The translations under genes were made by a program, and so were the position numbers. Positions 17,395 through 37,445 of a stretch of 37,445 nt of DNA are shown in pieces (position 1 is the stretch's first letter; every line of letters starts with the position of its first letter). Under the pieces are notes generated by a model. That model searched no databases, had not been told where the DNA came from, and saw nothing but the letters and a program-made list of their open reading frames with translations. Source of the stretch: an uncultured Methylococcaceae bacterium (lineage in GTDB: Bacteria; Pseudomonadota; Gammaproteobacteria; Methylococcales; Methylococcaceae); assembly GCA_903911305.1 (NCBI GenBank), contig CAIWDB010000206.1, forward strand, positions 1 through 37,445, in the 5' to 3' direction.

Positions 17395-17835
17395 TCAGAA
17401 CTTATGGTGATGTTGGCGCGTAGCATGTTCATCCGTCAGTTTCTGTTCTTGTTTGTTCTCCATGTACAGTTTCCTCTGTGCGGCTTGCTCGTCCAATACT
17501 TTGTAAGACAACCGTTTTCGCTCGATGACTTGCCAAGCTTCGCGTTCCACCATAACACGCTCGTGCGCTCTGCGCACAATTTCTTTTTGGCTCAGAATAG
17601 CGCGTTCTATATTTTCTAGGAATACCTGAAAATTTTGATATTTCCAAATCGACAAGCCGTTCGCCATGCTCTTCTGATAGTCCGCCGCGTAATTTTCCCG
17701 GTAATGTTCAAGCAATGCAAGTTTTTGGGCCGCTTCCTCCCTCGACTGGGTAGCCACGCCCAACCGGGTAGTGGCGTTGTCTGCCTCACGGGTTGCCAGT
17801 TCGATCAATATGGCGAGAGAAGATTGATTGGACAT
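17395..17835 (-). CDS. fliJ: Flagellar export chaperone-escort protein FliJ
   Basis: A coiled-coil protein of 146 residues, the standard FliJ size, which binds the FliI hexamer and recycles export chaperones. Nearly the whole protein is predicted helix with heptads (for example ENIERAILSQKEIVRRAHERVMVEREAWQ), and it contains the FliJ-like ATRLGVATQSREEAAQKLALLEHYRENY block. Primary sequence conservation is low in the family, and the position between fliI and fliK makes the call secure. Unlike its neighbours it is not close to the gene before it: 175 bp with a REP doublet lie between fliI and fliJ. Confidence 0.92.
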   Translation of the reverse strand: MSNQSSLAILIELATREADNATTRLGVATQSREEAAQKLALLEHYRENYAADYQKSMANGLSIWKYQNFQVFLENIERAILSQKEIVRRAHERVMVEREAWQVIERKRLSYKVLDEQAAQRKLYMENKQEQKLTDEHATRQHHHKF

Positions 17836-17888
17836 ACAGCGTTTTCTATATTTATTTGTTACTTACCTTTATACGCCCATGTCGGCAA

Positions 17889-17942
17889 AGGGTTGCCGAC
17901 CTACTGCGTATCAAGGACTGTAGGGCGGCAACCCTTTGCCGC
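17889..17942. repeat. REP-type palindrome doublet between fliI and fliJ
   Basis: GTCGGCAA-AGGG-TTGCCGAC type hairpin (from 17880s) and GGCGGCAA-CCCT-TTGCCGCC are each palindromic, and are also near reverse complements of each other in head-to-head order. Each is led by GTAGG when read outward, like the GTAG tetranucleotide of REP sequences moved by RAYT (TnpA-REP) proteins. It could stabilise the upstream fliF-fliI part of the mRNA. Confidence 0.7.
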
Positions 17943-17963
17943 CAACTATTCAAAAACTTGAAC

Positions 17964-17995
17964 AAAGTAATCAATTGACATTAAAAACGCTGTAA
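17964..17995 (+). repeat. 32-bp repeat flanking the REP doublet (copy 1)
   Basis: Begins AAAGTAATCAATTGACATT and ends AACGCTGTAA. The same 32 bases occur on the minus strand at 37339-37308 with two substitutions. In both places it follows a REP doublet in the same relative orientation, so it is part of a larger composite repeat. It ends 16 bp from the fliI stop. Confidence 0.75.
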
Positions 17996-18010
17996 GGGTT
18001 GATTCGACGG

Positions 18011-19420
18011 TCAAGCAAACAAAACTGAAAGTTGTTCCAGACTATGACTTATATTAGCCCTTTCTAGTATAGCCTGTTGCAAAAATTTTTCGACTTGGAT
18101 CCGCAAGTTGATGGCTTCGTCCAGCACCGGGTCGCTTCCCGGAGAATAAGCGCCCACCCGGATCAAGTCACGGCTTTTTTCGTAACGCGAATAAAGCTGC
18201 TTGAGGTGGCGCGCCCATGCCAGATGTTCGGGCGATGCGATAGTGTGCATGACCCGGCTGATTGATTGCTCAATGTCAATCGCCGGGTAATGGCCACTCT
18301 CGGCTAAGGTCCGGCTCAATACGACATGCCCGTCCAAAATCGCGCGCGCCGAATCGGCGATGGGGTCTTGCATATCGTCCCCCTCGCTCAACACCGAATA
18401 AAAGGCAGTGATCGAACCCATGCCGTCGGTTCCGTTTCCGGCACGCTCCACCAAGGCAGGCAACTTGGCAAACACAGATGGCGGATAGCCTTTGGTGGCG
18501 GGCGGCTCGCCCAAGGAAAGCGCCACTTCGCGCTGGGCCATGGCATAGCGTGTCAGCGAATCCATGATAAGCAACACGTTACATCCCTCGTCACGAAAAT
18601 ACTCGGCAATGGCCGTGGCATAACTGGCCCCCTGAATGCGCAACAACGGCGGGGTGTCGGCCGGCGCGGCCACCACCACCGATCGCGCCAACCCTTCGGC
18701 CCCCAGATTTTGTTCGATAAATTCCTTTACTTCACGTCCGCGCTCGCCAATCAAACCGACGACAATCACATCCGCACTGGTGTAACGCGCCATCATCCCC
18801 AACAATACGCTTTTGCCCACGCCGGACCCGGCAAAAAGCCCCATGCGCTGGCCTCGCCCTATGGTCAATAATGCATTGATCGCACGGATGCCAACGTCAA
18901 TGGGTTCGGTGATTGGCGACCTCGCCAGCGGATTAATGACACGCCCGACCAGTTGCGCCATCTGCGTGGTATGCACTGGCCCGAAACCATCCAAGGGTTT
19001 CCCCGCCCCATCCAATACCCGACCGAGCAACTCAGGGCCTACCGGCAAACGCCGCGCATGCGGATCGAAAATGTTAGCGCCTTCACTCAATTCGCGGGTT
19101 AAGATCGGGGCGGACAAAAATTCAGGGATGTAAACCAATGCGCCCGGCTCAACCCCCTCGATACTGCTCTGCGGTATCAAAAACAGTACGTTCCTCTCAA
19201 AGCCTACGACCTCGGCATCCAAGGTATTGCCATTGGGGATAGAAATCGAGCAAGCCGCGCCAACCGGCAGTTGCAAGCCTACCGCTTCCATGACCATGCC
19301 TGTCACCCGCGTAATTCGGCCCGAACAGCGCAAGGGCTGGCAGCGTCCAAGGCGCATCCTCGCCGCACGCAAGCATGAACACCAATGGTCGGCTGGATTG
19401 TCCATCATGGTGCCAGCCAT
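18011..19420 (-). CDS. fliI: Flagellar export ATPase FliI
   Basis: A hexameric ATPase that powers or assists unfolding and export of flagellar proteins. The Walker A site is GSGVGKS at about residues 198-204, Walker B is in [19 protein letters not shown], and the family signature [20 protein letters not shown] is intact. I start at the ATG at 19420 (469 residues, normal for FliI) because AAGGAG lies five bases upstream, inside the end of fliH. The frame stays open to 19549, but that extension is unlike FliI. A second ATG at 19408 overlaps the fliH stop. Confidence 0.96.
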
Positions 19421-20088
19421 TCGGACTCCTTGCCCAAAGCCAACCCAATGCGTTGCCAGCGCGTCGGCAGCGAAGCATCGATTTGCGTGGTCGATGTCTC
19501 CACCAAGCACCCGCCCGGTTCGAGTTGGGCATTGGCGACAATTTGCCAATTCAAATCAGCCAGCGATTCGGAGAATTCTTTTTTTATCCATTCGGCATCC
19601 GTAGGATTGAGGTGTAAGCGGGCAGATGATTCTTCGCCATAAGATTCGCGGATGATTTCACTGACTAGCACGGACATTAAATCCCGACGCACCGGAAGCG
19701 CTGTCTTGAGCATGGCTTTGGCGACATCCATGGCGAGTTCCAAGACCTCTTGGGAGATTTGTTCACTGGCTTGGTGAAGTTGCCTACTAAAGTCGTTGGC
19801 GATTTCCACCAAACGCGCCGAGGCTTCCTCCCCTTCCTTGCGACCCATTCCCATGCCTTGCCGATACCCCTCTTCGTGCCCCTTCGCCAAGCCCTCCTCA
19901 TAACCCTTCGCCAAACCCTCCCCATACCCCTTCGCCATGCCACTCTCATACCCTTTTTCCAAACCTTCCGAGTATGCCCGTCGCTGTGTTTCGTTGATCC
20001 TTCTTTCGACTTTTTCGCCAAACTCGGCAGAGGAGTCTTCTTTGGGAGGCGCCAAGCTTTGCAATTCCCAGCGAACATAGTTAGACAT
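19405..20088 (-). CDS. fliH: Flagellar export stator protein FliH
   Basis: Binds and regulates FliI and links it to FliN at the C-ring. Residues about 40-85 form the GxxxG/AxxxG repeat helix typical of FliH ([21 protein letters not shown] and onward). The C-terminal domain ([50 protein letters not shown]) resembles the V-type ATPase E-subunit fold. It has 227 residues. It overlaps fliG by 8 bp and the fliI start by about 16 bp. Confidence 0.95.
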
Positions 20089-36486: not shown

Positions 36487-37189
36487 CATCGGCTATGCTA
36501 TTTTGGGCATCAGAGCATATCTTGTGAGAATCGTCCCGGATGGTTAATCAGTTGTTTAGGAATGGCGGGGACATTTGAACAGAAAATTACGGTTTAGAAA
36601 TCAATTCGAAAATTCATCGGGTGCGTTGCACAAGCGGATAAGAACATTTTCAGGGTTTCGGGCATTCCTTGCCGCAGTGCACCCGGATAATTGTTGTAAC
36701 CGCCAATGCCAGGCAAGGCGCGTTGTCTGGCGTTAATGGCCTGTCCGGTAACGTCTATCACTTACGCACTGATAAAAACCATGGGTCTTTAACCGTGCCG
36801 CAAGGCCGAACCCGCGCACGGGCAAATAAACCGCCATTCTGCGCCACTGGGCCCCCCCCAAGGTGTCCAGTTTTCGCGTAGGCGAAAAACGCCCGGATGG
36901 GCCGGGCCGGTTAAGGAAGCGGCCTTGTCTGGCGCAAGCCGCCATCGGCATTTTTACGGGTTCAAACGGCGGCAGAATCGCCAAAATTGAGGCGTTTTTA
37001 TCCATTTTGGCAAACGCCACCCGTCACCTAGGGCGATGTTACTCATTTACGAAGGAATCCTTACGCCTACCCTTTCACGGTTGACATTGGACTGTCCGTA
37101 TCTAAATGGCTGATTTTTTTCTACACTCTTCCGAGAAAAAGGCCATCTCAGTTTTCTTAGATGTCCTTTATATTTTTCTGATTGGCTAA
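36487..37189. other. 700-bp stretch without a recognised gene
   Basis: Short frames on both strands (for example minus 37020-36733) have no family resemblance or ribosome site. The left part shows a run of C at 36851-36858. A minus-strand terminator-like hairpin lies at 36884-36907. No RNA gene was recognised. Confidence 0.5.
36884..36907 (-). terminator. Terminator-like hairpin with T-run on the minus strand
   Basis: GCCCGG (36891-36896) pairs with CCGGGC (36902-36907) around a 5-nt loop. On the minus strand the stem is followed by GTTTTT. No minus-strand gene is visible just upstream, so it may be a leftover of a lost gene or the end of an unseen small RNA. Confidence 0.45.
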
Positions 37190-37307
37190 TTACGCAGCGC
37201 TTGTAATAGCCTTCCTTTGCTTGCGCTTGATCTGATAACCGACCATGCAGAATCCAATCAGCATCATGGCCCATTCTTCGGCTTCTGGTACTGTAGTAAT
37301 ACTGACA
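37190..37307 (-). pseudogene. Orphan PEP-CTERM sorting tail (3' end of a lost exoprotein gene)
   Basis: Minus-strand codons give TTVPEAEEWAMMLIGFCMVG followed by YQIKRKQRKAITSAA and a TAA stop at 37192-37190. This is a complete PEP-CTERM signal: a VPE motif with W, one hydrophobic helix and a basic tail, as recognised by exosortase systems. The frame has a stop at 37321-37319 and no start codon, so only about 40 C-terminal residues remain. The break coincides with the end of the 32-bp repeat at 37308. Confidence 0.75.
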
Positions 37308-37339
37308 TTACAGCGTTTTCAATATCAATTGATTACTTT
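37308..37339 (-). repeat. 32-bp repeat flanking the REP doublet (copy 2)
   Basis: Minus-strand copy of the sequence at 17964-17995, with 30 of 32 positions identical (C/T and A/G changes). It lies 9 bp from a REP palindrome on one side and directly at the broken PEP-CTERM frame on the other. Confidence 0.75.
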
Positions 37340-37348
37340 ATTTGATCC

Positions 37349-37429
37349 GTAGGAGCGGGCCATGCCCGCGATTGTTTGGGCCAAGTCTTCAAAAATAGGC
37401 TATTTATCGCGGGCGTGGCCCGCTCCTAC
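37349..37429. repeat. REP-type inverted doublet (GTAGGAGCGGGCC)
   Basis: GTAGGAGCGGGCCATGCCCG... (37349-37371) and its inverted copy (37407-37429) match at 22 of 23 positions around a 35-nt spacer. Each unit starts with the GTAG tetranucleotide and contains the stem GCGGGC/GCCCGC, as in REP sequences mobilised by RAYT transposases. No RAYT gene is in the window. Confidence 0.75.
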
Positions 37430-37445
37430 ATGTTGCATATATTCA

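Follow-up and report, generated by a model that had tools for sequence, protein, structure and literature searches.

REP elements are usually explained by mobility that is driven by RAYT transposases. In the available text of two reports, REPINs and GTAG REPs are inverted pairs of GTAG-tagged palindromes, the arrangement that is also seen here (PMC3116915, PMC3733652). The REP pairs described below differ from REPINs in lying inside a TA-inserting shell with IS630-type ends, and none was found near the four PF01797 matches of the genome. In Pseudomonas putida and P. fluorescens, REP units are joined to unrelated stem-loops that flank RAYT genes, so that GTAG units adjoin unrelated repeats, in hundreds; these REPs are degenerate and tied to tyrosine transposase genes, and the available text of the report describes neither TA insertion nor IS630 ends (PMC3733652). 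IS630-derived MITEs with TA ends are also known from the accessible parts of the literature, namely Correia and RUP (PMC2817692, PMC2229807), and the ends of RUP resemble those of IS630-Spn1 (PMC2229807, PMC2817692). Two sizes are mentioned for Correia elements, a 50-bp internal sequence being the difference between them (PMC2229807), and a minisatellite-bearing MITE, that is, a MITE with repeat cargo, is outlined for Porphyromonas gingivalis (PMC4596501).

The two loci examined here are explained best, and with high probability, as non-autonomous MITEs with IS630-type ends that carry a REP doublet as cargo. As far as the accessible descriptions go, they are like RUP of Streptococcus pneumoniae and Correia/NEMIS of Neisseria in size (about 100-200 bp), terminal inverted repeats (TIRs), TA ends and a hairpin transcript, but their core is a GTAG-REP doublet, which occurs in two unrelated versions beside REP-free forms. 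From the P. gingivalis MITE they differ in organism and in cargo (PMC4596501, as far as its text was available). Among the titles and beginnings of abstracts listed from one open-licence collection, none describes IS630-type MITEs with REP doublets in them, or MITEs in Methylumidiphilus. IS630-type MITEs are thus known as such; what would be new, no report of it having been found in the literature searched, is that they spread REP doublets as exchangeable cores.

Two elements with common ends in the window

The window, i.e., the whole stretch of DNA analyzed, is the entire 37,445-bp contig G000:C206 of a draft genome (G000) of 661 contigs. Across the whole window, exact copies of AAAGTAATCAATTGA are present at 17964-17978(+) and 37325-37339(-). 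A search that tolerates up to two mismatches gives two matches, against a shuffle mean of 0.13, and none of 100 shuffles reached two. The stretch common to both loci is 35 nt long, in inverted orientation and 91% alike (17961-17995 and 37308-37342). Beyond the REPs, the 32-bp tail at the first locus has an inverted partner (17835-17864 with 17965-17994, 77%), and the unit there spans 17835-17994, reading TA-CAGCGTTTT...REP doublet...AAAACGCTG-TA. The features of both loci are as follows.

17395-17835, minus: fliJ, its start codon abutting the MITE (PF02050, 86.6 bits)
17835-17994, no strand: complete MITE of the REP-B class, 160 bp including one TA per end (TIR pair; homologues at C388 and C312; table of core classes)
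17835-17836, no strand: TA, left end of the REP-B MITE (sequence; TA is the target at other sites)
17835-17865, plus: TIR2, left end, TACAGCGTTTTCTATATTTATTTGTTACTTA (inverted-repeat pair; 27/31 positions shared with the C-end TIRs of IS630 in both G028 and G027)
17880-17904, minus: REP-B arm, GTAGGTCGGCAACCCTTTGCCGAC on the minus strand (inverted-repeat and pattern search)
17920-17944, plus: REP-B arm, GTAGGGCGGCAACCCTTTGCCGCC (inverted-repeat and pattern search)
17964-17994, minus: TIR1, right end, the 32-bp tail of the initial annotation (pattern at 46 sites in the same genome)
17993-17994, no strand: TA, right end of the REP-B MITE (sequence)
18011-19549, minus: fliI, upstream of the MITE in transcription (PF00006 and PF18269)
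37309-37445, plus: truncated MITE of the REP-A class, its first 137 bp up to the end of the contig (complete copies 170-174 bp)
37309-37339, plus: TIR1 of the REP-A copy (pattern search)
37349-37372, plus: REP-A arm, GTAGGAGCGGGCCATGCCCGCGAT (inverted-repeat and pattern search)
37406-37429, minus: REP-A arm, GTAGGAGCGGGCCACGCCCGCGAT on the minus strand (inverted-repeat and pattern search)

The arms are 92% alike in the REP-B pair and 96% alike in the REP-A pair, and in the window they are separated by spacers of 15 nt (REP-B) and 33 nt (REP-A). The palindromes of the two classes are unlike each other (GTAGGAGCGGGC.. in REP-A versus GTAGGGCGGCAACC.. in REP-B) and, judged from the sequences, do not look like point-mutation variants. 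In the first copy the two GTAG tags are turned toward each other, whereas in the second they are turned outward; the outward arrangement of REP-A we take to be the REPIN layout. The initial annotation had described these loci as a REP doublet plus a 32-bp tail, repeated at two places. The repeat itself and the REP doublets with different cores beside it were confirmed, and its description of the palindromes as head-to-head holds for the first copy, but not for the second. The composite of doublet and tail has to be revised, the tail being one of two TIRs and the one at 17835-17865 having been overlooked.

Only one TIR is present at the second locus in the window, as would be expected if this were a truly broken or solo element that had lost its missing half by deletion. 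This reading has hardly any probability: the second copy lacks the other TIR because the contig, which is the whole window, ends inside the element, and a contig end within 200 bp likewise cuts 51 of the 60 loci that were examined for the two TIRs, many of them about 138 bp into the element. Such ends are as expected where an assembly breaks at near-identical repeats, and the MITE family accounts in part for the fragmented state of this draft assembly. A PEP-CTERM-like C-terminal tail (TTVPEAEEWAMMLIGFCMVGYQIKRKQRK, 37187-37308, minus) immediately adjoins the REP-A element, any N-terminal part being beyond the contig end. A broken gene at this position, as initially proposed, is plausible from the adjoining tail, but the best model reaches 29.5 bits, below the 35-bit cut-off, and the remainder of the gene lies off the contig.

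The first element is located in a flagellar operon, in which Pfam identified fliF, fliG, fliI, fliJ and fliK, and the earlier placement of this doublet between fliI and fliJ was borne out by the Pfam assignments. The T at 17835, part of the left TA of the MITE, doubles on the minus strand as the A of the fliJ start codon, ATG (17835-17833). As RNA of the coding strand, the REP-B MITE is predicted to fold into a hairpin of -66.6 kcal/mol (z -7.7), and transcription through a fliI-fliJ unit would place this strong hairpin immediately ahead of the start codon of fliJ. A polar or stabilizing effect of this transcript on the level of FliJ is possible. Rfam returned sub-threshold matches only (miRNA families, one scaRNA and one S. 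aureus sRNA), which is to be expected of a strong hairpin. Elsewhere in the window, four imperfect 24-bp tandem repeats (19844-19963) lie within an ORF between fliI and fliG (19405-20088, minus), the position of which suggests a putative fliH, and direct repeats with a spacing of 273 bp (68-1430) are found inside a long ORF (42-2642).

Copies, core classes and shared ends

Searches of the draft genome with up to three mismatches located the TIR1 pattern at 46 places and that of TIR2 at 42, and none with the reversed pattern as control. Each of the 46 TIR1 sites was classified by reading its sequence: 39 have a REP-A core and five a REP-B core, one is without a REP (C26) and one is cut too short (C15). 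The search for the tail and its neighboring cores, by which the initial annotation had proposed to check its reading, thus found a readable REP core beside 44 of the 46, and the reading survives this check. The REP-A halves, counted if within three mismatches of the REP-A type start, are near-identical, averaging 99.2% among 34 TIR1 halves (six sequence types) and 98.9% among 32 TIR2 halves (eight sequence types), and this near-identity suggests a recent burst of REP-A in the genome.

TIRs were found in six of 38 genomes of the same family, comprising six of the seven genomes of the genus of the window, one of methane-eating bacteria, and none of the 31 others. One exact pattern was found, among named records, in Candidatus Methylumidiphilus alinenensis AMbin10 and in two uncultured Methylococcaceae MAGs (12 stretches); no copy was present in IMG/VR, searched with the exact pattern, or in plasmids. 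At two places (L206 and L207), a complete element is followed directly by a solo TIR (AAAGTAACT..AAAA.GCTGTA), possibly a scar of nested insertion or of excision.

From the loci examined, 105 paired sites were obtained; ten exceed 180 bp, being nested, adjacent or chance pairs, and were left out of the class counts. The other 95, complete and no longer than 180 bp, comprise 56 with REP-B (142-164 bp), 26 without a recognized REP (117-153 bp, mostly 117-130, and including two overlapping pairs of 138 and 153 bp) and 13 with REP-A (170-174 bp); these counts are not genome-wide frequencies, the elements of G025 and G027 having been chosen from listed TIR sites and not at random. There are 90 distinct element sequences, 74 of which have TACAGCG exactly at both ends. 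At this size the elements hold no gene, and they have the form of MITEs, namely terminal inverted repeats on a short, gene-free element, with TIRs of about 31 bp that start TA|CAGCGTTTT and, in the REP-bearing classes, a hairpin core of two inverted GTAG-REPs.

The two window elements could also belong to two independent MITE families, with ends that are alike only through the use of the same transposase and with no exchange of cores. REP-A and REP-B elements are indeed of different total length, and their REPs are differently oriented and spaced; in 60 of 64 elements, moreover, half or more of the closest ends at each TIR come from the same core class. Set against this is the TIR1 difference, which averages 3.9 of 31 positions between REP-A and REP-B and is no larger than that within REP-B (4.0). 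In some elements the likeness also extends past the TIR and takes in GTTTAAG, and only then do the cores diverge, as at G000:C84, where it continues with REP-B elements to the start of the cores. Moreover, two elements are mosaics. That at G000:C84 has a REP-A core and a B-like TIR2, with two differences from the REP-B element of the window and eight from the A-type TIR2 of G027/G030, and the one at G025:C40 combines a REP-B core with exactly that A-type TIR2. Two separate families are, on balance, an unlikely explanation, and the evidence for core exchange consists mainly of these two mosaics, in ends of only 31 nt. Given the preponderance of same-class nearest ends, the acquisition of each core was probably a rare event, after which core and ends were mostly passed on together.

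Insertion at TA and a candidate IS630 partner

The joined flanks of a REP-B element at G027:C48 match G028 over 262 of 262 aligned bases (236 identical) with no gaps and a single TA, the one clean case among 74 sites compared with the available DNA. A further search of the genus with 13 joined-flank sites gave two clean empty sites; two others were spanned, and nine, including the fliI-fliJ site of the window, were without a spanning match in any other genome of the genus. One of the clean cases is a REP-A element (G000:C149), empty in G028:C231 (88.6%) and G029:C46 (86.7%), and the other a REP-B element (G027:C30), empty at four loci in G028 and G029 (86-89%); the TA is kept at all of these, and the alignments have one to three gap positions each, away from the junction. 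More distant loci lack the TA, both at the G000:C149 site (G027:C55, 69%) and at that of G027:C30 (G025:C41, 79%; G000:C519, 74%). The two other spanned sites show no conserved TA (three genomes) or a gap at the junction (one genome). The REP-A site at G000:C8 is spanned by repeated sequence only (73%), one locus of which reads TA and another AA.

By these alignments, insertion at TA is shown for both REP classes, in one REP-A and two REP-B elements, none of them the window copies. What differs between the filled and the empty site in all three pairs is the whole TIR-REP-TIR unit, and at none of them was the REP pair alone the unit of mobility; at these three other copies, sequence comparison shows that the REPs travel with their shell as a single unit that inserts at TA. 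With such empty sites present in related genomes, the insertion process also becomes datable. The initial annotation had envisaged a mobile unit, or cassette-like family, in which one end is constant and the REP cores vary. This is supported by the dozens of copies, the two unrelated cores with their REP-free relatives, and the empty sites. The annotation's suggestion that different REPs insert into the unit does not stand as a demonstrated mechanism, since REP and shell move together and the exchange of cores is only inferred. The comparison of empty sites that it had proposed was informative for the three elements elsewhere, but not for the fliI-fliJ site.

A candidate source of the transposition activity is found in G028:C149, where a 313-aa ORF encodes an IS630 transposase (NF033545, 168.3 bits with a cut-off of 100; DDE_3, 106.2 bits) with a stop codon that overlaps the inner edge of a TIR. 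Relatives of this protein occur in G025 (one 74% alike over the full length, others partial or broken) and at four places in G027, where a match of 79% over residues 279-311 adjoins a TIR. In G000, no more of it was seen than 22 residues at a contig edge: the first 22 aa, identical to those of the transposase, lie at the start of contig C548, with the outer TIR end about 170 bp upstream. Five DDE_3 matches in G000 are not shown to be partners, since the stretches examined around them contained no TACAGCGTTTT-like end (one mismatch allowed). The ends of REP-B MITEs share up to 29 of 31 positions with IS ends (27 of 31 in the window copy), and at G027:C406 (L224, about 110-298) the end of an IS630 and a REP-B MITE are directly adjacent, with one TA common to both. 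No IS copy with the transposase and both TIRs was found on one contig, and the two ends are known from different genomes. The elements have their ends in common with an IS630 transposon of the same lineage, as IS630-derived MITEs do.

REPs outside the shell and their mode of spread

The window elements could instead belong to a REP or REPIN family that is moved by RAYT transposases, the tail being just flanking sequence that is carried with the REP, as happens in BIMEs or REPINs. REP-A and REP-B are inverted pairs of GTAG-tagged palindromes, as REPINs are, though with tags inward in REP-B. REP doublets without these TIRs are present in the genome (e.g., at C108 and C541), as are four matches to PF01797 (Y1/RAYT-type transposase), which may be of RAYT or IS200 type. 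The initial annotation's proposal to look for RAYT genes did not produce a link, as the DNA up to about 1.5 kb away from each of these four loci in the draft genome contains nothing like REP-A or REP-B, so that a cognate RAYT flanked by the same REP was not found; all four stretches have inverted repeats of other sequence. Mobility by RAYT is further opposed by the three other copies that entered whole between two TAs, and by TIRs that are common to REP-free elements. It is also opposed by the placement of REP-A: of the 154 REP-A places, the 100 listed are free of mismatches, and 99 of these lie at most 170 bp from a TIR site, the exception being the doublet without a shell at C108. This origin is accordingly rated very improbable.

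For the MITEs with IS630-type ends and REP cargo, the proposed course of events begins with an IS630 transposase that would bind the TIRs in trans and move the unit into a TA. The shell may have acquired REP doublets at least twice, once with tags outward (REP-A) and once with tags inward (REP-B), whether through REPIN insertion, recombination between elements or capture between two ends. REP-A would then have been amplified recently in G000 as cargo, rather than by a RAYT. The broader proposal, that the IS630-type ends form a modular container with an exchangeable REPIN core and that REPs spread via a DDE transposase and not via RAYTs, is one on which we consider the evidence evenly balanced.

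A second, unrelated inverted-repeat container (AATGCTGTTGAATTAAG...CTTAATTCAACAGCATT, 122-143 bp) was also observed, with these copies:

L082 1479-1600, L135 1467-1589, L146 1467-1588 and L151 1435-1556: copies in G000, carrying REP doublets
L321 2790-2932: copy in G026, with a different palindrome as core

Given this second REP-carrying container in the same genome, the capture of REPs by MITE shells may be recurrent. The REP-A places beside IS630-type TIRs point to a second route for REP amplification, and by means of IS630-type MITEs, REPs may persist without a nearby RAYT.
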